Of a DNA stretch of 40,231 nucleotides, positions 1,850 to 18,869 are shown piece by piece. The notes under the pieces were generated by a model, which worked only from the letters and a program-made list of their open reading frames with translations, made no database searches and had not been told where the DNA came from. The position numbers and the translations under genes were made by a program. This stretch comes from Akkermansiaceae bacterium (GTDB taxonomy: Bacteria; Verrucomicrobiota; Verrucomicrobiia; Verrucomicrobiales; Akkermansiaceae), in the NCBI GenBank assembly GCA_013041925.1, contig JABDRB010000004.1, positions 1 through 40,231 of the forward strand, written 5' to 3'. How positions within the stretch are numbered: position 1 is the first letter of the stretch; each line of letters starts with the position of its first letter.

Positions 1850-3016
1850 TTAACTCCTCATGAAAAAGTTGGGGAGACTAATGGCGTTGATGGAATCTGA
1901 GAGTGGATAGGTTTCGCCTTCTGGGATGAGGTAGGTGCCTTGGGTGGCACCGAGGGTTTTCATGCTTTCGAGAAAGGAGGGGGTGAGCTTCGGGGAGAGG
2001 GTGCGTTTGATCTCAATAGCGTGGATGTCTCCGTTTGGGTGCTCAAGCACGAGATCGATCTCGGCTCCGGCTTGGGTGCGGTAGTGGCTGGCGAGGGTGC
2101 CGGCGGGTAGTCGGGTGAGGATTTGCTCCATGCAGTAGCCCTCCCATGAGTGGCCGCAGAGTGGGTGGCCTAGAAGGTTTTCCATATCAGTTAGCCCTGC
2201 AAGGCTGTGTAGTAGTCCGGTATCACGCCAGTAGGTTTTGGGTGCTTTGACCAAGCGTTTTCCGGCATTGTTACTCCACGCGGGCAGGGTGCGCATGAGG
2301 TAGAGTCCTTCGAGTAGGTCGAGGTAGTGGCGCACGGTCTTGGCATCGATACCGAGTGAGCCGCCTATCTTAGAGAGGTTCAATGTGCTGCCCTGCTGGT
2401 GGGCCAGCATGGTGCAGAAGCGGCGTAGCTGGAGTGGTGTGGAACGGACCCCGAGCTGAGGCAGGTAGCGTTCTACATAGCTGGTGATAAAATCCGCGCT
2501 CCACTGCATGGCGGTGTCGTCATCGTCGGCGAGATAGCTGTCGGGGTAGCCGCCTCGGAACCAGTGTTGCTCGCGAGTGGCACGGTCTGGATCGGGATCG
2601 AGTTCGGTGAGATGTAGAGGATGGAGTTCGAGGTAACTGATCCTGCCCGCCAGAGTTTCGGAGCTTTGCTGCAGTAACTCGGGCGAGGCTGAGCCAAGTA
2701 AGAGGAACTGAGCGGACTTCTCACCAGCGCGGCGGCGTTCGTCCACCAGGCTGCGCAGGACGGGAAAAAGGTCCGGCACGCGTTGGATTTCATCCAAGAT
2801 AATGAGATGGTCGCTGAATTTACCGAGATAGAGCTCTGGGTCGGCAAGCTTGGCGAGATCAGAGGGGCGTTCGAGATCGAGATAATGGCAGGGTTTTTCC
2901 AGCTCGAGAGACCGTGCTAGCGTGGTTTTCCCAACCTGCCTAGACCCCAGAAGCACCACTACAGGGGACGTTGAAAGGCGTTTAATTAAGCTAGAATGGA
3001 GGTTACGATCAATCAT
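1850..3016 (-). CDS. AAA ATPase with C-terminal DUF4143 (AAA_14 type)
   Basis: This 388-residue protein has a Walker A motif GSRQVGKT at 24-31, a Walker B LIILDE at 71-76 and a sensor-like LLLGSAS near 115. The second half, with KTYWRDTGLLHSLAG and later AEIDLVLEHPNG and AIEIKRT, matches DUF4143. The AEIDLVLE...AIEIK arrangement resembles the restriction-endonuclease-like fold of that family. These ATPases are common in accessory regions of bacteria and archaea and their role is unclear. Full length and intact. It is transcribed leftward, 192 bases downstream of the helicase gene on the same strand, so co-transcription is possible. The first ATG is used, as MIDRNL is a typical family start. 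Confidence 0.9.
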   Translation of the reverse strand: MIDRNLHSSLIKRLSTSPVVVLLGSRQVGKTTLARSLELEKPCHYLDLERPSDLAKLADPELYLGKFSDHLIILDEIQRVPDLFPVLRSLVDERRRAGEKSAQFLLLGSASPELLQQSSETLAGRISYLELHPLHLTELDPDPDRATREQHWFRGGYPDSYLADDDDTAMQWSADFITSYVERYLPQLGVRSTPLQLRRFCTMLAHQQGSTLNLSKIGGSLGIDAKTVRHYLDLLEGLYLMRTLPAWSNNAGKRLVKAPKTYWRDTGLLHSLAGLTDMENLLGHPLCGHSWEGYCMEQILTRLPAGTLASHYRTQAGAEIDLVLEHPNGDIHAIEIKRTLSPKLTPSFLESMKTLGATQGTYLIPEGETYPLSDSINAISLPNFFMRS

Positions 3017-3208: not shown

Positions 3209-6200
3209 CTATCCGACCGCTAACTTTGCTGCATCATGCCAGAGGTAGGGGGGAAGGGCTTCATGAAGCTTCCATGTGATGTTCATCGGTTTATGATCAT
3301 TGTGAGAGTCTATTTGGACGGGGCCAATGTTAACAAAGCCCATAGCGCGACCATATGCATCTTTGCTTTTTTCACGAATAAACAACAGCACCTGTTTATT
3401 GAGTTCGAGATGTTTGACGTATTCGAGCCCTTTTCCTTTATCGGGGCGGGCCGAGTTTTGCGTCTGCCAGTGAAAAAGCCATTCGTTCACGGCGTAATCA
3501 TGGTAGGACGTCGAAGGAGAGAATTTTTTATCTGATTTGTCCAGGGTAACAAAAAGCAACTCCGTATTGATAGACTTAATATCTAATACCCCTTCTCGAC
3601 TGCTCGACTTTTTATCAAATCGATGTTCACCAAAGGCGGCTAAGATTTGATCCCTGCTATACCGAGCATGTAAATGAAGCGCGAGAGGGATGCCAATTTT
3701 CATGGGGATTTCCTGAATCTCAATGCGATCGAGAGCTAGATCCAACACGGCCTCTAGCTCTTCACATAAAACGTCATCTTGCCCTAATGCTCGCAAACTT
3801 TCCTCGAGGGAGTTGTAACCGAAGTGTAGCCCAGGCTTTTGCCAAAAATCATAATGCACCATCATCGCCATTTGATTCTCAATTTCACTGGACGGCTCCC
3901 ATAGAAACTTGTTGCGAACTAAGTTGAGAACAAATTGTAAATATTCCCGTGAGGAACACTGTAGCAATCGATTCGATATGGCTCGAAACATTGATTTCTC
4001 AATTTCCTTATTCAGTTCTTTATTAGTCAACCCAGCCTTGATGCATAGTCGTGACCACCCACCGCCGCCATCAATTTTTGTGCGATAAATATGTTCTAGG
4101 GAGACGTTGGGGTTTAACTTCACAAAGTTTTTGAGCGTCAATGGCAAATTGCTTTGCTCCGGATATGAACGAACCATACCCAACAATCGTCGCTGATTGA
4201 TCACCGCATTTTTGATGTTATTTAGAATGACCTCCTTCGCTTGCTTTTGTAACACAATCGAGCAGCCGACAGGTAAATGCGGAAAATCTTGCTCAACTTC
4301 ATCAAGAGTCGAAATGTGATTTTTTCCGGTAAGAGCTCTAAACTTTGATGCGAAATCATAGTTGGCATGGGCGTTGCCGACAAAATCAAGGACCGTTAAA
4401 CAGTCTTTGTCATCGGCTAGTCGTAATCCCCGTCCTAACTGCTGAAGGAATATTGTCAGACTTTCCGTCGGTCTCAGAAATAATACAGTATCAATTTCAG
4501 GGATATCAACACCTTCATTAAAAATATCGACCACACAGAGCACATTGATTTCCCCGTGTACCAGTTGGTTACGTAAGGCTGTACGATCTTGTCCATTTCT
4601 ACTGGTTAAGACCGCCGCTTTCACTCCGCGGGAAATAAATTCACTCTTCATGTAATCGGCATGATCTTGGGTGACACAAAAAGCTAATGCTCTGATCGAT
4701 GATGTGTCACCGATGATGTCCTGCATATTCCTCAAGATATGGTCTACTCGGGCATCGTTGGCCGTGTAGACTCGGGTCAGTTCGGAGCGATCATATCGCC
4801 CGGACTGCCATGATGTTCGAGAAAGATCCACAGGGTCATCGACCCCAAAATACTGAAATGGGCACAGATAGCGCTCGTTGATAGCGTCAGGTAAACGTAA
4901 CTCTGCGGCGATCACGCCGCAAAAATCATCCAAAATATTCGCTCCGTCTTGACGTTCAGGCGTTGCGGTTAGTCCCAATAAAATGTCTGGTGAGAGGTTA
5001 TTTAAAATCGGTCGGTAACTACTTGCTGAAATATGGTGTACCTCATCGATGATGATAAAGTCGTAAAAATCGCTAGAAAATTGAAGTTCGGATAATTTGT
5101 TTTTCAGTGTCTGCACCGACACAAAAAGTTGATCGTAGTGTTCCGGTTGATGATTGCCGACCCATAGTTCTCCAAAAGAAGGATCTCGTAGCACTGCTCG
5201 GAACGTTTGTCGGGATTGTTTGAGTATCTCTTCTCGGTGGGCGACAAACAGGAGTTTCGCTTGTGGGTTCTTTTTCTGAAATCGTTTGAAATCAAATGCG
5301 GCCACCATCGTTTTTCCTGTTCCTGTTGCAGCAACAACAAGGTTGTTGAATCGCCCATGTGTATTTCTCTCAACCTCCAGCTTCTCAAGAATCTCCTTTT
5401 GATGGATCCTAGGTTCCAAATCAAAAAAGAGCATGGGTTCATTCGCTCCACGTTCACCTCGAGCTTGTTTAAGCGCTTTCTCTAGCCTTTTATAAGATAC
5501 AGAGTCCTCCATTTTATACTGTTCAAACTCTGGAGAATTCCAATAAGTTTCAAAGGTGGATTTAAATTTCTCGATGATGTGCGGAATCTCTTGCGTGGTA
5601 ACTTTCAGGTTCCACTCCAAGCCATTGGTCAACGCTGAACGAGAAATGTTGGATGATCCAATGTAAGCGGTATCAAATCCACTGCATCGTTGGAATATAT
5701 AGGTCTTGGCATGTAATCTCTCTTGCCCGGTGTTGTAACTCAGTTTGACCGAGCAGTTGGGGATTTTGGAAAGGAATTCAACGGCCTTGAGGTCAGTGGC
5801 TCCCATGTAGGAGGTTGTGATGATTTTTAGTTTTTTTCCAGATTTTCCAAACTGCATTAAATCCTCGGCGAAAATACGAATCCCGGTCCATTTGATAAAA
5901 GATACCAACCAACAAATTTCATCAGAAGATCGAATCTCTCGCTTGATTTCACTTTCCAACGAAAGTCCAAGATTTGACCCTGTAAATAGCTCGCTTTGAG
6001 CGAGACCGGTCAAAGGGCTGACTTTTGCTACATAATTCTTCAAATCCGCGGCCACTGGATTTTGAGTTTGGTAGAGAGCCATTAAAAGCTCTCCTTTAGC
6101 ATCGATTAACTGCTCAGATATATCTTCTTCTTGTAAATAATCTTTGAGCCATAGAATGAGAGCATTTGAGAGGGTGATTTGCTGTTGTAGTTTGTCGGGC

Positions 6201-6376
6201 CCTTTCATGGATCCGTCTAAAACCGAATGCATCACATTTTGTAGAAACCGGGAGAGATACAAAGCGGCATCAGATGCTTGTAATGTTTGGCTCTCAACAT
6301 AATAACGACCCTCAACTTGTTCTAATTTATCCTGAAGTAGTTGAGTGATTAATTGCTCATAAATTCCGTTTTCCAT
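3209..6376 (-). CDS. PLD-like / DEAD-box SF2 helicase / DUF3427 fusion protein
   Basis: A multidomain protein of about 1055 residues. Numbered from an in-frame start 21 codons upstream (6439), it has a phospholipase-D-like HxK at 243-245 (RLHAKTYIF) followed by GSSN at 261-264. The SF2 motor has Walker A ATGTGKT at 371-377, DEVH at 465-468, TATPER at 491-496 and later QQLGRGLRL (motif VI). A long C-terminal part of about 350 residues matches the DUF3427 type. The start at 6376 (MENGIYEQL) is preferred because family members begin that way; the upstream extension is unlike the family. The gene is visibly richer in A+T than its neighbours, suggesting recent acquisition. One HKD half per chain implies a dimeric PLD site. 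A nuclease-helicase role in defence or repair is inferred. Confidence 0.88.
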   Translation of the reverse strand: MENGIYEQLITQLLQDKLEQVEGRYYVESQTLQASDAALYLSRFLQNVMHSVLDGSMKGPDKLQQQITLSNALILWLKDYLQEEDISEQLIDAKGELLMALYQTQNPVAADLKNYVAKVSPLTGLAQSELFTGSNLGLSLESEIKREIRSSDEICWLVSFIKWTGIRIFAEDLMQFGKSGKKLKIITTSYMGATDLKAVEFLSKIPNCSVKLSYNTGQERLHAKTYIFQRCSGFDTAYIGSSNISRSALTNGLEWNLKVTTQEIPHIIEKFKSTFETYWNSPEFEQYKMEDSVSYKRLEKALKQARGERGANEPMLFFDLEPRIHQKEILEKLEVERNTHGRFNNLVVAATGTGKTMVAAFDFKRFQKKNPQAKLLFVAHREEILKQSRQTFRAVLRDPSFGELWVGNHQPEHYDQLFVSVQTLKNKLSELQFSSDFYDFIIIDEVHHISASSYRPILNNLSPDILLGLTATPERQDGANILDDFCGVIAAELRLPDAINERYLCPFQYFGVDDPVDLSRTSWQSGRYDRSELTRVYTANDARVDHILRNMQDIIGDTSSIRALAFCVTQDHADYMKSEFISRGVKAAVLTSRNGQDRTALRNQLVHGEINVLCVVDIFNEGVDIPEIDTVLFLRPTESLTIFLQQLGRGLRLADDKDCLTVLDFVGNAHANYDFASKFRALTGKNHISTLDEVEQDFPHLPVGCSIVLQKQAKEVILNNIKNAVINQRRLLGMVRSYPEQSNLPLTLKNFVKLNPNVSLEHIYRTKIDGGGGWSRLCIKAGLTNKELNKEIEKSMFRAISNRLLQCSSREYLQFVLNLVRNKFLWEPSSEIENQMAMMVHYDFWQKPGLHFGYNSLEESLRALGQDDVLCEELEAVLDLALDRIEIQEIPMKIGIPLALHLHARYSRDQILAAFGEHRFDKKSSSREGVLDIKSINTELLFVTLDKSDKKFSPSTSYHDYAVNEWLFHWQTQNSARPDKGKGLEYVKHLELNKQVLLFIREKSKDAYGRAMGFVNIGPVQIDSHNDHKPMNITWKLHEALPPYLWHDAAKLAVG

Positions 6377-6505
6377 ATATTTTAAAGCTGCCTTCTCAAA
6401 ATGCCTTTTTTGTCTGGAACAACCAGGAAAAAAGATCAACAGCCATTACTCTTGAGTCATCTATCAGGATGGTTGATTGAAGCTCTGGGAACTTACAGTT
6501 GAATT

Positions 6506-6619: not shown

Positions 6620-7306
6620 TTAGTTTTTCCGGTAGCCGTGTTTTTCGGTCTCTTCTTCGACGATGGAGGAGAGGTCAGCTTCGGCGTCTTGGTGTTCTGC
6701 TGGGCTGGCGCATTCCTGCATGATGTTGCGACTGCTCCTGACTTTGCGGGAGAAACTTGCGGATGAGCTGTTAACTCCGTCTTCGCTGAGGTCAACCTGT
6801 GAGGCGTTTTTGTGGTCGATGCCGTAACTGGCAGCTGTGGCTATGGCGTCTTCGTTGGCGGCGAGGAAGAGGAATTCCCATTGGTAGTTGTCGGTTTGGT
6901 GGCGGATCATCTTGGCGATCTTGTTGGCCGTATAGTCGGTGGAGGCGTTTTCGTAGCCGTCTGTGTAGATAGCGACAATGACCTTGCCTGGACGTTTTTT
7001 CTCCGGTGTCTTGGCAAGTTGTTTGCCGATGTTGTCGATGGTGCGGCCAATGGCATCGAGCAGGGCTGTGCAGCCTCGGGGAACGTAGGTCGAGGCGTCG
7101 AGCTGTCTAACTTCCTGAATAGGTGAGCGGTCGGCGTGTAGGAGGTCTTCGTCATCAAAGAGCACGAGCGTCAGGTTGGCGTCTCCCGGTGTTTCTTGTT
7201 GATCTTTGAGGAAGGAGTTGAATCCTGAGATGGCTGATTCCTTGAGGTGGTCCATCGAGCCGGAGCGGTCGAGGATGTAGGCGATTTCGGTGAGGTTCTT
7301 GTTCAT
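6620..7306 (-). CDS. von Willebrand factor type A domain protein
   Basis: The 228-residue product is a single cytoplasmic vWA domain with a complete metal-ion-dependent adhesion site: DRSGSM near the N-terminus, a Thr in the PRGCTALLDAIG segment and Asp in IYTDGYEN. It has no signal peptide or membrane segment. Such domains bind partner proteins through Mg2+ and often act with AAA or kinase partners. The start at 7306 (MNKNLTEIAYILD) is chosen because the vWA fold begins at once; a start 30 bases upstream is also possible. It is the last gene of a minus-strand run with four small proteins (8385 to 7366), 59 bases after the 60-residue gene. The C-terminal 40 residues are acidic and probably disordered. 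Confidence 0.85.
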   Translation of the reverse strand: MNKNLTEIAYILDRSGSMDHLKESAISGFNSFLKDQQETPGDANLTLVLFDDEDLLHADRSPIQEVRQLDASTYVPRGCTALLDAIGRTIDNIGKQLAKTPEKKRPGKVIVAIYTDGYENASTDYTANKIAKMIRHQTDNYQWEFLFLAANEDAIATAASYGIDHKNASQVDLSEDGVNSSSASFSRKVRSSRNIMQECASPAEHQDAEADLSSIVEEETEKHGYRKN

Positions 7307-7365
7307 GGCTTGATATTGGCAGTGTGTATGGGACATTTGGTGGGTGATGCATCAATCGGGGTTAT

Positions 7366-8142: not shown

Positions 8143-8385
8143 TTATTGAGCAGCGATGCTTTTGGCGGGAGAAATGCGGGCAAACAACAAGTCGCGTTTG
8201 CGTATGGCTTTGGAGGAGTCGTTTGTTCCCAAGGACATTCGGACCCGCTGCTTTTGGTAGCTGTCGTTGTGCAGCGTGAAATGACACCACCAGGTGCCAT
8301 TGTTGTTCCAAAGGTGGTGGAGGGGATTGGCAGCGTCGATGCGGACGGCCAACTGGATGTTCTGTTTTTCGGTTGTAGTGCTCAT
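8143..8385 (-). CDS. Small protein resembling an integrase Arm-type DNA-binding domain (80 aa)
   Basis: The start at 8385 (MSTTTEKQNIQLAVRID) follows 165 bases after the structured leader at 8551-8636. The central part, GTWWCHFTLHNDSYQKQRVR then MSLGTNDSSKAIRKRDLL, reads as three strands followed by a helix. SLGT-x-D-x-x-x-A-x-x-x-R-D is the pattern at the end of the N-terminal Arm domains of tyrosine recombinases. No catalytic recombinase domain follows: the frame stops at 8143 and the next frame is unrelated. It is therefore either a stand-alone DNA-binding protein (excisionase- or repressor-like) or a fragment of an integrase. It is the first gene of the run that leads to the vWA gene. Confidence 0.6.
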   Translation of the reverse strand: MSTTTEKQNIQLAVRIDAANPLHHLWNNNGTWWCHFTLHNDSYQKQRVRMSLGTNDSSKAIRKRDLLFARISPAKSIAAQ

Positions 8386-8509
8386 GATGGTTGTTATCGG
8401 GTTAACAAGATCAAGCACAACGCTTCAAGGGTCTGGACAGAGTCCCTAGGCAAAGCCCTCCGAGTGATTGGGTGAGAGATGCCAGGGTATGTCTTGGAAT
8501 ATTTCGATT

Positions 8510-8546
8510 CGCGACAGAGATTAGTTTTGAGCTAAACTTTGTCGCG
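8510..8546. repeat. Hairpin downstream of the first structured leader
   Basis: CGCGACA at 8510-8516 on the plus strand pairs perfectly with TGTCGCG at 8540-8546. An inner pair (AGTTTTGAGCTAAACT region) lengthens the stem. No T-run follows on the minus strand. It lies between the leader element and the 80-residue gene, where an expression platform would be expected. Confidence 0.5.
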
Positions 8547-8550
8547 CACA

Positions 8551-8636
8551 GTGTAAGCCGGGGTTAACCAGCCACTACACCTTACGCGTTCCAACCGCTA
8601 AGGTTGTCAGACCTGTGAAGGTCGTCCTTGATGTTG
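8551..8636 (-). ncRNA. Structured leader, copy 1 (related to 10127-10221; SAM-I/IV-like core)
   Basis: Read on the minus strand, this shares an ordered series of words with the element at 10127-10221: CAACATCA, CGACCTT, a C-x-G-x-CAACCT segment and AAGGTG. Predicted helices are GACCT-TCAC-AGGTC, a P3-like ACCTTA-GCG / CGCG-TAAGGT, and a P4-like GTGTA...GCTGG / CCGGC...TACAC. The P3 arms differ from copy 2 but still pair, which is covariation-like support for an RNA. I could not find a closing P1 helix, so this copy may be degenerate or may close differently. It sits 5' of the small-protein/vWA operon. Ligand and function are not established. Confidence 0.5.
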
Positions 8637-8709
8637 ATTGTTATTTTATGGGTGAAATAGGTTTGTGCAATGCTGCTGTAACTTGCGGTGTCATAGATGT
8701 TTGGTTAGA

Positions 8710-8874
8710 ATGAATCAGCATGAATCTGAGATTGATGGAGAATGGCGATGGACCTCAGTCTCAGTTCATAAAATAGGCGAATGGCTCGCCATCATATTCA
8801 ATTTCACTAAGAATCATGATTTGGTGATTGAGTGTGTGGATGACTCTTCCTCAAAGCGTGGTGGGACGGCATGA
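8710..8874 (+). CDS. Doubtful small plus-strand open frame (54 aa)
   Basis: Starts MNQHESEIDGEWRWTSVS and contains a hydrophobic stretch (IGEWLAIIFNFT). It is the only plus-strand frame of any promise in the stretch between the minus-strand leader and the secreted-protein gene at 8985. There is no clear ribosome site, no partner and no recognised family. The rest of 8637-8984 holds nothing else I can support. Confidence 0.2.
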   Translation: MNQHESEIDGEWRWTSVSVHKIGEWLAIIFNFTKNHDLVIECVDDSSSKRGGTA

Positions 8875-8984
8875 TTGGCATGGGTCGGTGCGGTTGTGAG
8901 TTGATGATTTTTTCGATGTTGGATAGTAGTCTTGAGGCATGGGACATTCTGAGGGTGAGTCTTGAATGAGATAGGCTCGGTTGG

Positions 8985-9644
8985 TTAATGTTGACCAATG
9001 ACCACTTGCATACCTGTTTTTAATTCGTTCAAGCGGTGTTGTATCGCGGCGATCGATTCCGCTCCATATGCTTCGCAGTAGGTCAGGTTTGAGCCAGGCT
9101 GATCCCCTTCGACGAAAGAAAGTTCGCCCAACACGTCATGATTATGTTCATCAAATTCACCGGAAGAGAGAGGTAGATTTTCCATGAAGTGGTAAGCTTG
9201 AGCCATGGGGCTTTCGTGCATTTCATAATCCCAGTCGAGCCAATGCGATCGTTCGCTGCCTTCGATGGGGGTGTCAAATTCTGTGCGTAATTGTCGCAAA
9301 TGCTCTTTGGTTACGGTCTCGCCTTCGTCTAATTCAGATTCTCGCCATTCGAGGAAAAACTTTTTGAGGGCGGCGTCTTCGCGTGAATCATATCCCTTCA
9401 TTTCAATGAAGTCCTCAAGGGTGGGGTAATCGGGTTCTGCACTTGGATGGCCCATATAAAGCGTGTAGGCAGAGTCTGAATAGTTTTGGATTGCGTAGAT
9501 CGATCCACAGGGGTTTTCCGGAGATAAGATGCCTGGTTGGGCGAGGCCCGAACCGATCTGTTTAATACGCTGAGCAACGGATGGAGGGATCAGGCATGCT
9601 CCTGAAAACAATCCTGTAATGGATAAAAAGTAACGTCGTTTCAT
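8985..9644 (-). CDS. Secreted hypothetical protein (219 aa)
   Basis: The ATG at 9644 gives MKRRYFLSITGLFSGACLIP, a typical export signal with a basic start and hydrophobic core. Cleavage is likely near SVA, or lipidation at the Cys of SGAC is possible. The mature part is acidic and rich in Glu, Asp and aromatic residues, with no recognised motif. An upstream in-frame TTG would extend it by ten residues but would bury the signal peptide. It begins 30 bases after the 100-residue gene on the same strand, so the two form a pair behind the riboswitch-like leader and terminator at 10042-10221. Function unknown. Confidence 0.7.
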   Translation of the reverse strand: MKRRYFLSITGLFSGACLIPPSVAQRIKQIGSGLAQPGILSPENPCGSIYAIQNYSDSAYTLYMGHPSAEPDYPTLEDFIEMKGYDSREDAALKKFFLEWRESELDEGETVTKEHLRQLRTEFDTPIEGSERSHWLDWDYEMHESPMAQAYHFMENLPLSSGEFDEHNHDVLGELSFVEGDQPGSNLTYCEAYGAESIAAIQHRLNELKTGMQVVIGQH

Positions 9645-9674
9645 GGTAAGATTAAGTTGAGGTGTCGTGTTCAA

Positions 9675-9977
9675 TTATTGGGTTGAGCTGTTCTCTTGAG
9701 GGAGAAGGCCTAAATCATCGAAAACCTCTGTCATAAAGGCGTCCATATAGGCCATGTTGGCATACCTCGCTCTGCCATGAGCAAGTTTCTCTTCGGCCTC
9801 TTTCCGTTGTTGAGCGAGGTTGAGCAGTTGGCCTGAATGCAAATTAAGTTGATCCAGTTCGGCTAGGAACTGTCCGTTGCGATCACGGTGTTCCTGATAC
9901 GAAATGTTGATGGGTTCTGAGTCCGTATCGAGCGCGATTGTGCCTTGGGCGAGGCTTCCTTTATCTGGTTGTGTCAT
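9675..9977 (-). CDS. Hypothetical protein, first gene after the riboswitch-like leader (100 aa)
   Basis: From the ATG at 9977 the product starts MTQPDKGSLAQGTIALDTDS. It has a helical, probably coiled-coil middle (LDQLNLHSGQLLNLAQQRKE) and an acidic end. It has no signal peptide and no recognised family. A GTG at 10040 would extend the frame by 21 codons, but that lies directly at the base of the terminator-like hairpin and is less likely. The gene is the first one downstream of the leader at 10127-10221 and is followed by the secreted-protein gene. Confidence 0.6.
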   Translation of the reverse strand: MTQPDKGSLAQGTIALDTDSEPINISYQEHRDRNGQFLAELDQLNLHSGQLLNLAQQRKEAEEKLAHGRARYANMAYMDAFMTEVFDDLGLLPQENSSTQ

Positions 9978-10041
9978 GATGTGTAATTCGTGGATAAACA
10001 CATCAGGAGATAGGACTGCTTTTACGGCAGTCCCGAACACA

Positions 10042-10074
10042 AACGACCCGACCTGAACATCAGGCCGGGTCGTT
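10042..10074 (-). terminator. Strong hairpin between the leader and the 100-aa gene
   Basis: On the minus strand AACGACCCGGCCTGA pairs with TCAGGTCGGGTCGTT: a 15-bp stem with one G-T wobble and a TGT loop. Only a weak T-rich tail (TTTGTGTT) follows. It lies 52 bases downstream of the leader and 64 bases before the ATG at 9977. That is where a conditional terminator of a riboswitch would be. The arms are symmetric enough to work on the plus strand too, but no plus-strand gene ends here. Confidence 0.7.
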
Positions 10075-10126
10075 GAAATCCGGTTGGAAAAATTGCTGTT
10101 CGATCCAGATGTTTAGTCTGTTTCGC

Positions 10127-10221
10127 ACATCGTGACTCTGAACCGGAGTTCATTGTCATCTAGGCACCTTGGCTTTTCCACTGCCAGGTTGCCGGGCCCC
10201 GAAAGGTCGCTCCTGATGTTG
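10127..10221 (-). ncRNA. Riboswitch-like leader, copy 2 (SAM-I/IV-like architecture)
   Basis: On the minus strand the element is closed by P1 ACATC (10219-10215) with GATGT (10131-10127). Inside are a short P2 region (CGACC...), the word CCCGGCAACC, P3 ACCT-GGC / GCCA-AGGT, the word AAGGTGCCTA, and P4 GAC..TGAAC-TCCG-GTTCA..GTC with a UNCG loop. The order P1-P2-P3-P4 and the words CGGCAACC and AAGGTGC are those of the SAM-I/SAM-IV riboswitch clan. The P2 part is much shorter than in SAM-I, as in SAM-IV and SAM-I/IV variants. It precedes hypothetical genes rather than methionine genes, so ligand identity is uncertain. Confidence 0.55.
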
Positions 10222-10684
10222 TAACGAAGATGACACAAAATGTTTTAGATATCAAGGAGCAAACATATTCCGGTGTGTCATAGACGATTGAAGTTGGAAA
10301 TACTCAAAGAAAGAAGATCTTTGGAATTCTATTAAGTCTTGCAAGGAGATGCGTAAGTTCACGTCCTCTGCTGATTGTGTAAAAGTCCTAGATAAAGATG
10401 CGTCTCAGAAGTGATTAGGCATATCCTACCCCTTCCAGAATAGGAGGGGGCAATGGAGTTAATGGGTAATCGATCAACGTATACCCTTTTGAACCTGACG
10501 CTGAGATGCGACTGAGCCTATTTTCTCTGGGAATCTCCCCTCATGCCCCGTCAGGTAAGAGTTCAATACGAAGATGCGATTTAACCTATGAGGGCGCGCG
10601 GTAACCGCTTGGACAAGATCGTGCGTAGTGGAGCTGGCAGTGAAGCATTTGAAATTGCGCTTGAGGATCTCCTTGGCATCGATC
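10222..10684. other. Stretch without a supported gene; hairpin at 10429-10449
   Basis: No credible gene is seen. A compact hairpin is present: CCCC-T-TCC (10429-10436) with GGA-GGGG (10443-10449), loop AGAATA, and no T-run on either side. A minus-strand frame from about 10702 down to 10482 is open for about 70 codons without a good start. It may be decayed DNA of the insertion sequence whose fragment lies at 10685-10897. Confidence 0.4.
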
Positions 10685-13162: not shown

Positions 13163-16100
13163 TTAGCCATCATGGCCGACGAGATGGCGCACTTGGCGGA
13201 GCGGTGGGAACCGGCGAACAATTTGTTTTTTCTCGGTGATCTCAATGAGTATGTCGGCGCTGTTGGGGCCGGCAGAACGGTTGATGAGGATCATGTTGTT
13301 GTTGTCACGCATCTGGATGCTCCGGATGTCGGTTTGGCCGAGTTCTGGAAGGTCTTCGATCGACATACTCCAAGTGAGTTTGTTTTCCGTAGAATAGCGA
13401 CGCAGGCCGAAGCCTCCGCCGACGGTGATATCACCTGCGTAGTTCATGGCCATGGCGGATACCTGACTGGGGCAGCGGATTTGACGCACGACTGAGCCGT
13501 TGTGATTGTATTCCCTCAGGGTGGATTCACCACCGAGGGAAACAACGAGTCCGTGGCGGCTCTCTCTGACAATACCGGATTGTATGGGCGACGGCTCATC
13601 GTGTTGCAGGGCAATGGTGGTGAGCTCTTTCAGGGTGGCATCGAGCAGGACGAGGCGGGTTTGACCGGCGTCAAGAATGACGGTCTGGCCATTGGTGAGG
13701 CGTCGGCATGAGAGGATGTCCCCCTTTCCTGTGTAGGACCGGATGACAGCCCCGCGGCTGTTGATTTCCTTGAGTGTGTTCTCTGAGGAAAAGAGGAGAT
13801 TTCCATGGGGAAGCGATTGGATATCATGGCAGGTGCCGGTGTTGATCTGCTCGAGAACCTTGCCGTCGGCTGAAAATTTGATGACGGCATGCTGGTTGGC
13901 GACGATGTAGTCACCGTTTGACGGCATGCCACTGGGGACACCCGTGAGGTTAGCGCAGGCTGGAGAGAGCGGGTTCTTGGCGTATGGGAACCGTCGCGTA
14001 ATTTGTTTCTTGCGGTTGATTTCCACGAGCGCGCTGGGCACGAGGATATTTCCATTCGGGAGTAATCTGACCCCCTGTGCGTGGTCGACGTTCACGCCGG
14101 GGATATCCTGACTGGTGAGTGACCAAGTGATTTTGTTCTGGGGGTCAACGATCTGGATACCGCCGTCACCCCCGATGAGGATGTTTCCATTTTCTAGGGC
14201 GGCAACGCTGTGCACCTCACCAGGGAAATTGATGGTGCGCCGTTTTTTACCATTTTTATCGTATTCACTGACCAGGTGGTCGGCTTGCTGGGCGACCAAG
14301 TAGGTGCCACGTGGGCCGCGGCAAGCGCGGAGGATGCCTTTGTTTTTGACGCTGACGGGGATTCGGATCACTGGTTGCATGGATCGATTCAGGATGATGA
14401 GGCAACTCGCCGCGCTGTCGGTGATCAGAGTAAAGCCGTTCTCGAGACGTTCGCAGGAATGGATGGGTCCGGTCGCCTTGTAGCGATAAATGACGCGACC
14501 CTTGCGGTTCATTTCCTTGATGAGATCACCATCGGTAAAGAGGATGTGACCCGACTCCAGAACGTGCAGATCGTGACAATGTTTGGCGGGGTGGGACCAA
14601 GTGACTTTGCCCGTTTCACTGTAACGGAGGATTTCCCCCTGTGTCGGGTCGGCAACGATGAGTGTGGTTTCTGCCGTCGGCTGGGTAGGCGTCCCTGCGA
14701 ATGCGGGGGTCTTGGTGACCTTCCATGGGTCGGGCCAATTGTAATTTTCTCTGCGGGGCAGCGAGCCGTCGGCTGGGTTTTTATTGATCAGCTTACCATG
14801 GTAGACGCAGTTGAAATCGACCCAAGTGACTAGGGCATACCACTCCTCGTTGCTGAGTTGAATGTCATGATGGCCATTTTTGAGGGTGGTGATCAGCTTG
14901 CTGGCATGGGAGCCAAAGGCCATCGCTTCGGTAACGCTTGAGCTGCTGAAGCGGTCGGCCAGGGTGACCTGTGATTGTTTCCCGATGCCGAGCAAGGTGG
15001 GGCCAAGCAGGGAGTGGTAGGACTGGTTGAATCGCCCTTGGCCCTTGGACTCCACCTTGGTCGCGGTGAGGTCGATGGGTGTTTCTTTGTTGGTTCCGGA
15101 GTGGCAACTGACACAATGCCGGTCAAGGACGGGCTGGACGTGCGTTTCGTAATCAAAGGCATTGTATCCCCACGGTGCTTTTTCCGGCATGGTTGCGGGG
15201 CGGCTCAGGGCGATGCCTTGTTGATAGGTGGGCGCAGCATGGCTTCGGGTCTCGTGACAGCCCGTGCAGCTGCGGACTTCGCCAGGCTGGAAGGAAACAG
15301 ACGATCGCATACGTTTGACCTCCATGAAATCCTTGTCGAGTGCCTGGAAATAAACGGAGGCGTTCGAAGCCGTGGGCACCTTGAAATGCGCCGATCCGTC
15401 ATGCTCGACAGGAACCAGGCCGATCTCACGGACCGATGTCCAGCGGGTGGCGCCTGGGAGCTTGGTCCATTTGTTTCCATAGGCAAATTTGCGTGCTCGA
15501 CCACTTGCGTCGAGAGGTGTGGGGAGGTGTTGTGCGATACGGAGGTGTTTGATGGTGCCTGGCGTGATGTCCTTGGCCATTCCTTCGTAGATATTGGAAA
15601 TGATGCAGGTGGCGTAGTTTTTTTCCGGTGACGTCGCGTCCGGCATGGTGTGTGGTCGGTGTCGTTTTTTTAAGGGGGCGACATCCACCGAGCAGAGGAG
15701 AGGGTCACGGAAAATGAGTTCCTTATTCCCGAAGGCGTCGATGAGATAGAGGCCAAAGCCATTGGATGGGGTGCCGGGTGAGGCGGACGTGGTATGCCGG
15801 TTGCAGTAGGCGGAGGCATACGTGTATGAGCTGAGCATGACCGTTTCCGAGATCGGGTAGGGGTTGCGGTAATAGCCACGGTGATCCGTGACGCCACCGA
15901 ACTCCACAGGGCCGGTGGCCTCGTTCATTTTTCCCTCCTGAGGCAGGATGCCGGCGGTCATCAGTGACATGGCGGCCGGGTTGTTGCCGCCTTGGTCGGG
16001 GTCGATGACCACGATGGGGCCGCGGGAATAACAGTGGTGGCCGGCGGCAATGGCAACGATTTTGTTTGTGTCTGGGATGGAACGCACCTCGCGCAGTGCC

Positions 16101-17428
16101 CATGGGTAGGGGATGTGGGATTTGTAATAGGCGTCCGCATTGGTGCCATCGGGTCGGATGGTCCAGATCGAGTGGGTCTCGTTAAAATGTCGTTCTTGGT
16201 ATTCCCAGTGGAGGTAGGCGATCAGTCCGTTGTTGAGGAGCCGAGGTGTCATGTCGACATCGCGGTGATTGGTCAGCCGTCTGATGCTTTCACTGTTTCG
16301 CTGGTAGAGGTAGAGGTTGGTGTCGGTGATGTCATTGTTTTCTGAATCGCAGGGTGGCGAGTGTTTGGAGCGCTCCGAGGTGAAGGCAATATCATCGTTA
16401 GGGCAGTAGATCGGTTCGGTATCTGACCAGACCGGGTGGCTGGTCAGTCGTTTCAGGCCGGTGCCATCGGTATGGATTTCGTAGAGCCCGACGCCCTCGA
16501 GGTCCTGGCGCAGGTCGAGTGCCCAGTTGGCATTCCATGGTTGTGGGAAATGGGCCTCGCGTTTCGGGGGCCAAATGAGCTGTTTGCCATAGCCGAAGAC
16601 GATTTTTTCCCCATTGAAATGGAGGTCCATGCCGTGGATATGCCCTTGTGGGAGTTGGTCACCGATAACATCCTGGATGTCGTGGGCGGTTTCCAGCCCG
16701 TGTAAGATGGTGATCGCGCCACCAGGTTTATAGGTGCCGTTGTGCTGGATACCGCAGACGTTGGCTTTGTGATGCGGTGCGTGCCGAGTATAAAATATGA
16801 GGGAGTCGAAATCGATGGCTTTGTGCTGAAAGACAAAGGGCCGGAGGATGCGACGAGCAGCGAGCCAGCTGTCGCGCACCTCGCGCTGAGTCTTCAACCC
16901 TTTGGCGATCCGGGCGAGCGATTTGAGTCGGGTGACAGCTTGTTTGGCTCCCAAATCGGCGGCAGGTTTGAGTGCATGAGATGTGATCTGCTGTTGCAGC
17001 CTGGTCGTCATCACCTCGATTTCGGTGATCAGTTTTTGCGGGCTCCGGCTGATGCCTGCGGCGATCGCTTGTCGGCACCAGTCCATCTCGATGCGTTTTG
17101 TCAGCGGGATGTCATACCATTGGATAAACCAATCGGGATTGGACACCATCGGCCATTTTGCTTGGTCGAGCATATTCTCGTTCCCGACTTTGAGTGACAG
17201 TGCCCACTCGGCGGTGGCTTGGACAAAAAGATCATCGTGGCTAAGTAGCCGACCTGCCTCAGCGGCCAGGGTATCCGAGAGCCGTGTGCGGTCAGAAACC
17301 GCGAGGATTTTTTCGGCGCTCGTCAGTGCGGGTGGTAAGGAAGAATCTTTCGCTGCGATTGGAGACTCTTGTGCGTGTGTGCTGCTGGCAGTGAGCGCCG
17401 CCGATAAAATGATGAGGAACGATTTCAT
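13163..17428 (-). CDS. Large secreted diheme protein, HzsA-like with C-terminal beta-propeller repeats
   Basis: The start at 17428 gives a clear signal peptide (MKSFLIILSAALTASSTHAQ) and a 1421-residue protein; a 50-codon upstream extension is rejected. Residues about 200-640 carry Asp- and Trp-rich propeller-like blades (DGTGLKRLTSHPVWSDTEPI, IAFTSERS) of the kind annotated in PVC bacteria as hydrazine-synthase-alpha-like. Two heme-binding motifs follow: CTGCH at 721-725 and CVSCH at 772-776. From about 890 on there are repeated GNILI-GGDGG / LPNGNILVPS blades of a second propeller. It is probably periplasmic and redox-active. True hydrazine synthesis is not implied, since no HzsB/C-like genes are near. 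The gene lies upstream of the sulfatase on the same strand. Confidence 0.8.
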   Translation of the reverse strand: MKSFLIILSAALTASSTHAQESPIAAKDSSLPPALTSAEKILAVSDRTRLSDTLAAEAGRLLSHDDLFVQATAEWALSLKVGNENMLDQAKWPMVSNPDWFIQWYDIPLTKRIEMDWCRQAIAAGISRSPQKLITEIEVMTTRLQQQITSHALKPAADLGAKQAVTRLKSLARIAKGLKTQREVRDSWLAARRILRPFVFQHKAIDFDSLIFYTRHAPHHKANVCGIQHNGTYKPGGAITILHGLETAHDIQDVIGDQLPQGHIHGMDLHFNGEKIVFGYGKQLIWPPKREAHFPQPWNANWALDLRQDLEGVGLYEIHTDGTGLKRLTSHPVWSDTEPIYCPNDDIAFTSERSKHSPPCDSENNDITDTNLYLYQRNSESIRRLTNHRDVDMTPRLLNNGLIAYLHWEYQERHFNETHSIWTIRPDGTNADAYYKSHIPYPWALREVRSIPDTNKIVAIAAGHHCYSRGPIVVIDPDQGGNNPAAMSLMTAGILPQEGKMNEATGPVEFGGVTDHRGYYRNPYPISETVMLSSYTYASAYCNRHTTSASPGTPSNGFGLYLIDAFGNKELIFRDPLLCSVDVAPLKKRHRPHTMPDATSPEKNYATCIISNIYEGMAKDITPGTIKHLRIAQHLPTPLDASGRARKFAYGNKWTKLPGATRWTSVREIGLVPVEHDGSAHFKVPTASNASVYFQALDKDFMEVKRMRSSVSFQPGEVRSCTGCHETRSHAAPTYQQGIALSRPATMPEKAPWGYNAFDYETHVQPVLDRHCVSCHSGTNKETPIDLTATKVESKGQGRFNQSYHSLLGPTLLGIGKQSQVTLADRFSSSSVTEAMAFGSHASKLITTLKNGHHDIQLSNEEWYALVTWVDFNCVYHGKLINKNPADGSLPRRENYNWPDPWKVTKTPAFAGTPTQPTAETTLIVADPTQGEILRYSETGKVTWSHPAKHCHDLHVLESGHILFTDGDLIKEMNRKGRVIYRYKATGPIHSCERLENGFTLITDSAASCLIILNRSMQPVIRIPVSVKNKGILRACRGPRGTYLVAQQADHLVSEYDKNGKKRRTINFPGEVHSVAALENGNILIGGDGGIQIVDPQNKITWSLTSQDIPGVNVDHAQGVRLLPNGNILVPSALVEINRKKQITRRFPYAKNPLSPACANLTGVPSGMPSNGDYIVANQHAVIKFSADGKVLEQINTGTCHDIQSLPHGNLLFSSENTLKEINSRGAVIRSYTGKGDILSCRRLTNGQTVILDAGQTRLVLLDATLKELTTIALQHDEPSPIQSGIVRESRHGLVVSLGGESTLREYNHNGSVVRQIRCPSQVSAMAMNYAGDITVGGGFGLRRYSTENKLTWSMSIEDLPELGQTDIRSIQMRDNNNMILINRSAGPNSADILIEITEKKQIVRRFPPLRQVRHLVGHDG

Positions 17429-17567
17429 GAGGTTGAGATCAAGCCGATTGCCCCAACCGTATGCCATTTCGGGTGGCAGAACAAGACCCATCCCATCTGT
17501 GCTGGTCTGAGATTTCCTTTCTTGCGGTGGTGGGCGTGTGCTGCATGATGGCGGCCAGGCTTGAAAG

Positions 17568-18869
17568 ATGTCTGCCACGACTATGGAACTCCTTGATGCA
17601 TCCGCTATTTTACTGACCTTGGCAGCCTTGTTCTCCTATGTGAACCATCGCTGGATCAAGCTGCCGACGACGATCGGCATCATGCTGATTAGTTTGGTCA
17701 TGAGTCTGATGTTGATCGGGGTGGGGCAGTTTCTCCCGGATATGCAGGAGGCGGTGGATCGATTCGTGACCGAGATCGACTTCAACAAGGCGCTGATGAA
17801 TGGGATGCTGAGTTTTCTGCTGTTTGCTGGGGCGCTGCATGTGAACCTGCATGAGCTGAAGAAGCAGAGGCGTATCGTTGGTATCATGGCGAGTGCGGGC
17901 GTGGTGCTTTCGACGTTGCTGATCGGTTCAGCATCTTACGGGTTGTTTCAGCTGCTCGGCATTGAGGTGCCGTGGATCTGGTGCCTCGTCTTTGGCGCGC
18001 TGATCTCACCGACGGATCCAGTGGCTGTTTTAGGTATCCTCAAGCGTGTCGGTGCGCCCAAGTCGCTGGAGACGAAGATTACGGGAGAGTCGTTGTTTAA
18101 TGATGGTGTGGGCGTGGTGGTTTATCTTTCCTTGTTGGGGATGGCGGGTGTCGGTGGTCACGGATCGGGTCACCATGGAGCGGGGGATATTGCGATGCTT
18201 TTTGTTAAGGAAGCGGGTGGCGGGATTGTATTAGGTGGGGTGCTTGGATGGCTCTGTTACACGTTGTTAAAATCGATCGACCACTACCATGTGGAGATAC
18301 TGCTGACCCTGGCTCTGGTGCTGGGCGGGTATCGATTAGCGATGATGCTCCACCTCAGCGGGCCGCTGGCGATGGTGGTGGCCGGCCTGATGATAGGGAA
18401 CCACGCGCGTGAGGATGCCATGAGCGAGAAGACGCGGCTTCAGGTCGATACATTCTGGGAGCTGATTGATGAGATCCTCAACGCGCTGCTTTTTTTGCTG
18501 ATTGGGCTGGAGATTTTTGTGTTGGATTTTTCGGGTCCGGTATTGGTTGCTGGGTTGCTTTTGATTCCCGTGACCTTGATGGCACGTTTTATTGCGGTCT
18601 CGATCCCGGTGACGATTCTGCGGCGATGGCGTGTGTTTACCCCGGGAGTTTCCAAGATCCTGACATGGGGTGGGATTCGTGGTGGAATTTCTGTGGCGCT
18701 CGCACTCGCGATCCCCACGAGCATGGGAGAGGTGCGGGATGCCATTCTGTTGGTGACCTATGTGATCGTGATATTCTCGATTGCGGTGCAGGGGATGACA
18801 TTGAAGCCGATGATCGCTAGGGCGATTCGGCGAGGCCAATCGGGAGAGGCGGGGGGGGCGACGGAGTAA
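17568..18869 (+). CDS. CPA1-family Na+/H+ antiporter (NhaP type)
   Basis: A 433-residue membrane protein with about 12 hydrophobic segments. It carries the diagnostic motifs of monovalent cation/proton antiporters: SPTDPVAVL at 148-156 (the TD pair of the unwound helix) and GESLFNDGVGVVVY at 173-186 with the ion-binding Asn-Asp at 178-179. It exchanges cytoplasmic Na+ (or K+) for protons at the inner membrane for salt and pH homeostasis. A His/Gly-rich loop (GVGGHGSGHHGAGD) follows the ND helix. The ATG at 17568 is used; the ATG five codons later is also possible. It is divergent from the diheme gene with 139 bases between the starts and is followed after 4 bases by a small basic protein. Confidence 0.92.
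   Translation: MSATTMELLDASAILLTLAALFSYVNHRWIKLPTTIGIMLISLVMSLMLIGVGQFLPDMQEAVDRFVTEIDFNKALMNGMLSFLLFAGALHVNLHELKKQRRIVGIMASAGVVLSTLLIGSASYGLFQLLGIEVPWIWCLVFGALISPTDPVAVLGILKRVGAPKSLETKITGESLFNDGVGVVVYLSLLGMAGVGGHGSGHHGAGDIAMLFVKEAGGGIVLGGVLGWLCYTLLKSIDHYHVEILLTLALVLGGYRLAMMLHLSGPLAMVVAGLMIGNHAREDAMSEKTRLQVDTFWELIDEILNALLFLLIGLEIFVLDFSGPVLVAGLLLIPVTLMARFIAVSIPVTILRRWRVFTPGVSKILTWGGIRGGISVALALAIPTSMGEVRDAILLVTYVIVIFSIAVQGMTLKPMIARAIRRGQSGEAGGATE

Follow-up and report, generated by a model that had tools for sequence, protein, structure and literature searches.

A probable SAM-I/IV riboswitch and a worn relative in an Akkermansiaceae contig, from a Verrucomicrobiota group found mostly before one orphan gene family

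Two minus-strand leaders in a contig of an Akkermansiaceae bacterium look like riboswitches, and the genes behind them are not textbook methionine genes. What are these RNAs, how might they switch, and what would they control? We addressed these questions in a window (the whole stretch of DNA analysed, 40,231 nucleotides) that comprises positions 1-40,231 of the forward strand of JABDRB010000004.1 (assembly GCA_013041925.1). The window includes a low-GC stretch.

Two related leader elements

The two leaders share ordered words, as an earlier note on this DNA had pointed out: in the whole 3.28-Mb genome, CAACATCA-N4-CGACCTT occurs with zero mismatches solely at 8618-8636 (copy 1) and 10203-10221 (copy 2), both on the minus strand, and nowhere with one mismatch. 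Both copies contain a P2 hairpin, P3 arms of the form CAACC...AAGGTG, and P4. The P1 and UNCG-capped P4 that had been described for copy 2 were found as a five-pair helix and a UCCG cap. Including the downstream expression platforms, the elements run from approximately 10223 to 9977 (copy 2) and from approximately 8638 to 8386 (copy 1), and are thus longer than first described. The features of copy 2 and its genes are as follows.

10121..10223, minus: predicted SAM-I/IV aptamer of copy 2 (RF01725 and model R1)
10219-10215 and 10131-10127, minus: 5' and 3' strands of copy 2 P1, 5 pairs; P2, P3 and the capped P4 accompany it
10173..10180, minus: P3-loop side of the copy 2 pseudoknot, TGGAAAAG, an 8-pair complement to 10085-10092
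10085..10092, minus: 3' strand of the copy 2 pseudoknot, TTTTTCCA, 3' of a conserved GAAC
9675..9977, minus: 100-aa protein behind copy 2, no family assigned; a relative lies behind RNA and HHLW gene in locus L033
8985..9644, minus: secreted-looking protein (MKRRYFLS..., TAT-like by eye); relatives lie behind RNA and HHLW gene in L045, L060, L241, L251 and the viral contig L314

Copy 2 matches the SAM-I/IV family RF01725 at 39.4 bits (E 2.6e-4; 2.2 kb searched against 4227 families), just under the gathering cut-off of 41.1 bits, and it matches R1, a model of relatives that contains no window sequences, at 67.1 bits (E 1.4e-15 over the window). On these two E-values we rejected chance resemblance for copy 2. 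R1 was built from 27 of 37 trimmed RNAs from the order, after exclusion of near-duplicates and one mis-trimmed row; L049-L052 and L061, which belong to a different group, had been dropped earlier. A second model, R2, was built from 71 RNAs. Copy 2 has the four-helix core with GGCAACC and AAGGUGC, and its helices covary among relatives. Its P2 aligns as a single short hairpin without an internal loop, both in the model alignments and by eye; according to PMC2864571, SAM-I/IV RNAs lack the internal loop that P2 has in SAM-I and SAM-IV. RF00162 (SAM-I) gave 0 matches in the genome at E<=10, and a SAM-I riboswitch was rejected on that basis; the Rfam comparison that the earlier note had proposed thus placed copy 2 near RF01725, below cut-off, and left copy 1 without a match. 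Because copy 2 keeps both the layout of RF01725 and the core positions that were mapped, the suggestion of a new riboswitch variant does not hold in the sense of a new class, and the assignment to the SAM-I/IV clan does. Copy 2 is, on this comparative evidence, a SAM-I/IV riboswitch aptamer. Matches to PYLIS_5, SNORD98, mir-2013, isrD and bxd_5 in the same Rfam scan were sub-threshold noise.

The better-than-chance case is strong for copy 2 and modest for copy 1, the features of which are listed next.

8540..8638, minus: worn SAM-I/IV-like aptamer of copy 1; P2, P3 and P4 recognisable, P1 reduced to 3 of 5 pairs
8494..8499, minus: 3' strand of the copy 1 pseudoknot, TTCCAA, pairing with P3-loop TTGGAA (8594-8589), 6 pairs
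8386..8415, minus: platform remnant of copy 1, CTTGAT (complement of ATCAAG) and a weak hairpin whose end falls at the start codon of HHLW
8143..8385, minus: HHLW gene behind copy 1, 80 aa, motif NHHLWNN-GTWW, DUF6538/Arm-DNA-binding-like

In unfiltered searches copy 1 scored 14.5 bits with R2 (E 0.015), the second-best place in 8 kb on both strands, and 10.8 bits with R1; it was missed by a search with default filters, and RF01725 gave no match at E<=10. We give little credence to the idea that copy 1 resembles the family by chance. Its low score, its broken P1 and its platform hairpin (-5.4 kcal/mol, equalled in 59 of 200 shuffles) speak for that idea; against it stand the 15 ordered bases that copy 1 has in common with copy 2 and with no other place in the genome, its rank in the 8-kb search, and a spacing of 221 nt from its end to the HHLW motif, inside the 105-298 range seen elsewhere. 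We regard copy 1 as a homologue also because it is positioned before an HHLW gene and has its own pseudoknot pair, TTGGAA/TTCCAA. A pseudoknot search limited to 75 nt picked a different pair for copy 1.

A large group of related aptamers

Further copies in other genomes, which the earlier note had named as a test, proved abundant: covariance-model searches recovered many relatives across Verrucomicrobiota, with helices that covary. Among the 71 aligned RNAs, in an alignment that was fitted to the model, 352 cells changed on both sides of a pair, a count that none of 500 shuffles reached (124 when shuffled), and 19 of 26 pairs showed two-sided change versus 15.8 when shuffled (5 of 500 as high). 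Fifteen core columns could be mapped to the pocket or to the pairs that close it. All 71 RNAs agree at 14 of them and 69 agree at the last, in a set found by a model that rewards those columns. The invariant columns include U's that we take to face the sulfonium in SAM-I. A pseudoknot between the P3 loop and a strand 3' of P5 is present in both copies, with 8 pairs in copy 2 and 6 in copy 1, and it covaries in relatives: when 3' sides were swapped between leaders (n=714), the own side paired better in 421 cases and worse in 104.

In a sample of 20 loci with these RNAs, most scored below the Rfam threshold: 16 did not reach the gathering score of RF01725. Within the order, 25 of 288 genomes have a match that passes it, and so do relatives L101, L103, L242, L272, L276 and L300.

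The genes behind the RNAs

The gene context of these RNAs is not random, and is largely a single protein family, which we call HHLW. Outside the window's own family, 46 of 64 HHLW places have an RNA directly upstream, although many of the 71 RNAs in R2 come from places later counted, so that detection there is not independent; within that family an RNA was detected at 1 of 39 places, and the 38 others were searched with default filters that overlook weak RNAs such as copy 1. These 103 places leave out matches under 70 bits; four weak matches in long frames, when inspected, looked like tyrosine recombinases. Among the best 80 HHLW matches in titled genomes, 67 have the RNA in front. A contig or stored-sequence end lies within ~130 nt at 2 of the 64 places and at at least 5 of the 13 misses among the best 80. 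A search of literature titles and abstract starts turned up no earlier account of the RNA-HHLW link; Additional File 1 of PMC2864571, a paper on these variants, may list gene contexts.

Neighbouring genes were called with a simple ORF script at 65 loci, two of them left out. In the window's own family, the gene immediately ahead of HHLW encodes a PLP enzyme akin to those of Cys/Met metabolism in 11 of 15 loci examined; in 3 other loci an mtnA-like gene is nearby. Fifteen neighbour clusters were common to at least three loci, and both of the two that were scanned are methionine-related, the other 13 being unscanned. In one lineage (L101) the same aptamer precedes metY, identified by TIGR01326 above its cut-off. 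Within the window, the intact copy 2 precedes the 100-aa and secreted-looking proteins, and the worn copy 1 precedes HHLW, in agreement with the earlier description of small hypothetical proteins and a secreted protein.

HHLW proteins are mostly 70-100 aa in length. At E<=0.1, 25 of 27 members match DUF6538 (best E 1.9e-5); the window member scores 17.9 bits against DUF6538 (PF20172), under the Pfam gathering cut-off of 27. Its AF2 model (pLDDT 78) has a beta3-alpha fold. A Foldseek search of the PDB with this model returned nothing at E<=0.001, and the top row in VIA, 3jtz (Z 4.2, rmsd 2.2, 50 aligned), is a weak match tied with an unrelated next row. PDB sequence matches to trehalase and CgnE (E 0.46 and 0.98 only) were taken as chance, and no paper in the literature searched mentioned DUF6538. 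HHLW may bind DNA and serve methionine/SAM homeostasis.

A recurrent, likely switching strand

Downstream of the aptamer, copy 2 has two sites that could read the state of P1.

10042..10074, minus: 15-pair hairpin resembling an intrinsic terminator (-27.2 kcal/mol), with TTTGTGTT after it
10064-10056, minus: CCTGATGTT inside this terminator, complement of the P1 5' strand AACATCAGG
9977..10009, minus: second platform, in which CTCCTGATGT (10009-10000) is a 10-nt complement of ACATCAGGAG
ending at start codon 9977, minus: start-codon hairpin TGATGTGT...ACACATCA

In folding calculations, a copy 2 transcript that ends at the first site favours the antiterminator (-54.7 vs -49.9 kcal/mol for P1), and the full-length transcript favours P1 with both hairpins (-101.4 vs -99.0 kcal/mol). 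The anti-strand reaches just the upper third of the very stable terminator.

To follow this arrangement across relatives, 79 leaders were listed by hand from the model matches, with DUF2637-, sigma- and metY-type RNAs and duplicates excluded; 76 gave a P3 loop for the pseudoknot analysis and 73 a start codon for the platform analysis. In 57 of the 73 leaders the P1 5' strand (NCATCAGG) has its complement within a terminator, at the start codon or in both places, versus ~4 of 73 with shuffled strands. It lies at both in 23 leaders, copy 2 included, and there are signs that such relatives could stop both transcription and translation; 16 of 73, copy 1 among them, have neither platform. The base immediately 5' of CATC changes together with its partner, being paired at 72 of 80 sites (0 of 2000 shuffles as high). 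At the two positions preceding that base, pairing was no better than in shuffles, and an extension of the switch helix beyond it was therefore set aside. Evidence for compensation inside CATCAGG is mixed: in the 21 leaders whose P1 5' strand departs from this consensus, the strand's own downstream complement was longer than the consensus strand's in 6 and shorter in 9.

Discussion

The sequences themselves show the predicted aptamer, with its conserved core and pseudoknot, and both copy 2 hairpins; they also show that the complement recurs and that the RNA is associated with one gene family. We consider it probable that copy 2 works as a SAM-I/IV riboswitch and that copy 1 is a decayed one, both from a large Verrucomicrobiota group that is mostly seen before HHLW and acts as a SAM-dependent OFF switch. 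The likeliest reading is that such a switch would control HHLW, an arm-type DNA-binding-like protein, perhaps in methionine control, with SAM as the presumed ligand and OFF as the presumed direction. At low SAM, the P1 5' strand (NCATCAGG) would pair with one or two downstream complements (CCTGATGN'), hindering the terminator and/or freeing the start codon, and the gene would therefore be on. With SAM bound, P1 and the P3-loop pseudoknot would lock and the complement would be released, allowing the terminator and the start-codon hairpin to form; the gene would therefore be off. Several findings speak against this reading: within the window the intact copy precedes other genes and the worn one precedes HHLW; 38 of 39 HHLW places in the window's own family yielded no RNA; compensation inside CATCAGG is mixed, and pairing before the covarying base is no better than in shuffles; the anti-strand reaches just the upper third of copy 2's terminator; 16 of 73 leaders have neither platform; and the fold match of HHLW is weak.

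Because the gene behind the aptamer is not a methionine gene, the RNA might instead have drifted to a different ligand, such as SAH or a further relative of SAM. The context does differ from classical SAM regulons, and the Rfam model misses most sampled loci at its gathering score. We nevertheless find this drift very improbable, given the near-complete invariance of the mapped core columns, among them the U's that face the sulfonium in SAM-I, the presence of metY behind the same aptamer, and the PLP enzyme and mtnA-like genes beside or near HHLW.

Somewhat less improbable, though still unlikely, is that the RNA belongs to a mobile cassette and travels with its island genes (HHLW, the secreted protein and a vWA protein), without a role in metabolism; the earlier note had likewise raised spread with these cassettes. 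The window's low-GC stretch and two copies fit such a history, as do the several HHLW copies in some genomes. Relatives of the secreted protein occur in 2 of 387 genomes (one being the window's own) and yet lie behind RNA and HHLW in 5 fetched loci, one of them an IMG/VR contig, in a set picked for RNA or HHLW; of the fetched RNA or HHLW loci, three (L057, L077, L253) contain vWA relatives. Against this, most genomes of the phylum sample that carry HHLW have a single match, some clades retain a constant HHLW neighbour, and the window HHLW had no tblastn match in plasmid or phage collections. Spread with cassettes may apply to the island seen here and to one of the two HHLW-bearing contigs in IMG/VR, which are a minority of cases in a context made up largely of one protein family.

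Returning to the SAM-dependent OFF switch, the analysis exposes a large SAM-I/IV set that the Rfam cut-off misses at most of the loci sampled, ties it to one conserved orphan gene family in many members of the phylum, and lays bare its likely switching strand. This offers a handle on the orphan family, that is, on what these bacteria make or stop making at low SAM, and the possible double gate, in which one strand would serve both termination and start-codon masking, is of interest for riboswitch mechanics. A bolder extension, which we hold to be possible but doubtful, is a two-tier SAM circuit. In it the riboswitch would use one P1 strand to work a transcriptional and a translational gate together, and would thereby set the level of HHLW, a free-standing, recombinase-arm-like DNA-binding regulator of methionine genes. 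If true, the outcome would be MetJ-like, but RNA rather than protein would act as the sensor.

Among known systems, these RNAs stand closest to SAM-I/IV (RF01725; 4L81). They share the order and words of P1, P2, P3 (GGCAACC...AAGGUGCC), P4 and P5, the core positions that were mapped, and a pseudoknot that joins the P3 loop to the 3' end; the published 4L81 sequence (PMC5393176) has the same element order. Unlike typical members, copy 2 falls just below the cut-off, HHLW or its neighbours lie behind the aptamer in place of a methionine enzyme, and the terminator and start-codon platforms reuse the P1 5' strand. With SAM-I (RF00162) they have the binding core in common, to which they add the pseudoknot from P3 loop to 3' end. 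For HHLW, the nearest known relation is the arm-type DNA-binding domain of tyrosine recombinases (DUF6538 PF20172, Arm-DNA-bind_3 PF13356, 3jtz), with which it shares the G-x-W...R-x-SL-x-T...AR-x-x-RD pattern and perhaps the beta3-alpha fold of its model; unlike those domains it is free-standing and small, with its own NHHLWNN motif and a window member below the Pfam cut-off. Control of methionine genes by MetJ is a known system built on a small DNA-binding protein. The end use may be shared, in that SAM level would be read out through such a protein; here, unlike in MetJ, SAM would be sensed by the protein's mRNA and not by the protein itself.

Copy 2 is a SAM-I/IV riboswitch and copy 1 probably a worn homologue

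The earlier note had drawn attention to two leader RNAs sharing the same ordered words, and genome-wide they stand alone: CAACATCA-N4-CGACCTT occurs exactly twice in 3.28 Mb, at 8618-8636 and 10203-10221, both on the minus strand. At gathering scores Rfam detects no family in the window. When 8300-10500 is scanned permissively, RF01725 (SAM-I/IV) matches copy 2 at 10108-10224 with 39.4 bits, below the cut-off of 41.1 (E = 2.6e-4, computed for all 4227 families), and copy 2 is the sole match of a whole-genome RF01725 search at E ≤ 10. R1, a covariance model built on 27 aligned RNAs from RF01725 matches in the order, without window sequences, gives copy 2 67.1 bits (E = 1.4e-15). The suspected likeness to the SAM-I/IV clan is borne out for copy 2; of the Rfam models proposed for checking, RF01725 is positive but under its cut-off, and RF00162 (SAM-I) matches nowhere in the window's genome at E ≤ 10.

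With default filters and E ≤ 10, R1 finds nothing in the window besides copy 2. Unfiltered, it places copy 1 at the top of 1 kb (10.8 bits, E = 0.016). Under R2, a broader model of 71 RNAs without any from the window's genome, copy 1 ranks second in 8 kb, behind copy 2 alone (14.5 bits, E = 0.015), and keeps 3 of 5 P1 pairs in the R2 alignment. Judged by sequence, we take copy 1 to be a worn homologue of copy 2, which is itself a real riboswitch of an already known class.

Further copies exist in other genomes, as the note had asked: RF01725 has matches in 17 of 98 genomes at E ≤ 0.1, the window's own counted, and in 60 of 288 genomes of the window's order at E ≤ 0.05. Base-pair covariation is likewise found, with a score of 0.519 over 71 RNAs, in an alignment that had been fitted to the covariance model, against 0.177 when shuffled and at most 0.125 when slid. 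Changes on both sides affect 19 of 26 pairs, where shuffles give 15.8 and come as high in 5 of 500; such changes fill 352 cells, against 124 when shuffled (0 of 500 as high).

Copy 2 carries a putative OFF-switch platform

Downstream of copy 2 lie a 15-pair hairpin (-27.2 kcal/mol; equalled by 0 of 200 shuffles) and TTTGTGTT, and beyond them a second hairpin (-9.2 kcal/mol; again equalled by 0 of 200) whose end falls in the start codon of the gene for the 100-aa protein. The first contains CCTGATGTT and the second CTCCTGATGT, each complementary to the P1 5' strand ACAACATCAGGAG. Among relatives, such a complement of at least 8 bases is present in 61 of 79 leaders versus 12 of 395 shuffles. At a threshold of at least 7 bases, 73 leaders divide into start codon only (23), terminator only (11), both positions (23) and neither (16), and shuffled strands give any complement in about 4 of 73. 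The base before CATC is paired in 72 of 80 sites (G-C, A-T, T-A, G-T; 0 of 2000 shuffles as high); at the same sites, pairing at the next two positions is not above shuffles. For the 21 leaders whose strands depart from CATCAGG, the result is mixed, the own complement being better in 6 and worse in 9.

Fold energies of copy 2, computed without pseudoknot and without ligand, favour the antiterminator when the RNA is folded only to site 1 (-54.7 versus -49.9 kcal/mol), and favour P1 with both hairpins closed in the full leader (-101.4 versus -99.0 kcal/mol with an open start codon). This balance would be the one expected of an OFF switch.

The RNA and the HHLW protein form a widely conserved pairing

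The window places these RNAs among the following genes:

473-1579, Fic/DUF4172 protein, beside the riboswitch genes
1850-3016, AAA_14/DUF4143 ATPase, beside the riboswitch genes
3209-6439, ResIII/PLDc/DUF3427 helicase-nuclease-like protein, beside the riboswitch genes; looks defence-like
6620-7336, vWA-like protein, with a match to the phage protein family phrog_7371 (E = 2.8e-55)
8143-8385, minus strand, HHLW, an 80-aa protein
8540-8638, minus strand, copy 1
8985-9644, minus strand, secreted-looking protein
9675-9977, minus strand, 100-aa protein
10121-10223, minus strand, copy 2
13163-17578, 1471-aa protein, matching the hydrazine synthase alpha middle domain (E = 7.6e-21), also with arylsulfotransferase-like and SGL-like stretches

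Relatives of the vWA-like protein lie in RNA or HHLW loci L057, L077 and L253. The window's RNA and HHLW genes sit on a low-GC stretch, at about 3-11 kb.

Copy 1 lies upstream of the HHLW gene; the genes for the 100-aa and the secreted-looking protein come behind copy 2. Elsewhere RNA, HHLW and secreted protein stand in a row (L045, L060, L241, L251, L314), as do RNA, HHLW and 100-aa protein in L033; the window looks as though such a unit had been doubled and taken apart. On contig C10 of the same genome is a further HHLW gene without a detected RNA.

In the order, HHLW lies behind the RNA in 33 of 43 loci; the ten others include the window's copy 2 and one contig-end locus. A phylum search, G347 included, found it there in 23 of 29 loci with sequence, from 43 places. 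HHLW matches at E ≤ 0.001, weak ones counted, occur in 96 of 387 phylum genomes. Places of at least 70 bits number 103. In the window's own family the RNA accompanies 1 of 39, namely as copy 1; of the other 64, 46 have it upstream (44 by script within 700 nt, 2 from separate searches), covering 42 of 47 genomes, and two RNA-less places lie at contig ends. Among the best 80 of 546 relatives in genome_contigs, the RNA is at 67, and 74 carry titles that name Verrucomicrobiota or Lentisphaerae groups; Rfam at its cut-off reports 4 of 20 sampled loci of this collection carrying RNA and an HHLW relative. Together RNA and HHLW are a widely conserved regulatory pairing, of which our literature searches, covering search listings and passages, found no earlier description. 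Close HHLW gene pairs occur in some genomes (L053, L137, L139, L230), with five genes in G373 and four in G451.

Across 27 aligned members the protein reads NHHLWNN-GTWW...R-x-R-x-SL-x-T...AR-x-RRD. DUF6538 (Pfam) matches 25 of the 27 at E ≤ 0.1, the window's member falling below the cut-off; NCBIfam gave nothing meaningful. An AF2 model has three strands and one helix (pLDDT 78), and its top VIA-align row is the arm-type domain 3jtz, weak and tied (Z 4.2). At the weak end of the phylum search, many matches fall within 350-460-aa frames, and the four of these that were read look like tyrosine recombinases. The window's HHLW matches no plasmid or phage record; two viral contigs match HHLW, one with the RNA. 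A tRNA gene sits just behind HHLW in L154, L158 and L161, all from the window's family, and might be an integration site.

Neighbouring genes point to SAM and methionine control

In one lineage metY lies behind the same aptamer (L101; the L101 and L103 aptamers exceed the Rfam cut-off). In 11 of 15 own-family loci examined, including the second HHLW gene of the window's genome, a related PLP enzyme is directly upstream of HHLW, and the one from the window's genome matches Cys_Met_Meta_PP. Genes resembling mtnA lie near HHLW in three other loci, one confirmed; of 15 neighbour clusters shared by three or more loci, the scan covered these two. These neighbours point to SAM and methionine control, in which HHLW may have a part.

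In L100 an aptamer of this group directly precedes a sigma-70-family factor gene. In L050, L051 and L061, RF01725 matches (61.3, 58.6 and 44 bits) directly precede the gene of a DUF2637-like membrane protein, which is followed by a RadC-like gene; both are of mobile-element type (Pfam check: L050 only), and the start codon comes soon after P1. At these loci the aptamer has a second use, distinct from the one before HHLW.

Comparison with known SAM-I/IV RNAs

The SAM-I/IV family is described as lacking the P2 internal loop and as typical of metagenomes (PMC2864571). In the window's leaders the P3 loop forms a pseudoknot with a strand that follows GAAC, with 8 base pairs in copy 2 and 6 in copy 1; across 76 leaders the own partner is better in 421 of 714 swaps and worse in 104. 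Fifteen core columns were mapped to the pocket and closing pairs of the solved SAM-I/IV RNA (PMC5393176); of these, 14 show no variation in 71 of 71 RNAs, and the remaining one is constant in 69. Copy 2 belongs to a known class and not to a new one, on its RF01725 layout and these core columns. The P3-loop pseudoknot, too, matches the SAM-I/IV RNA with a solved structure, whose sequence is given in PMC5393176.
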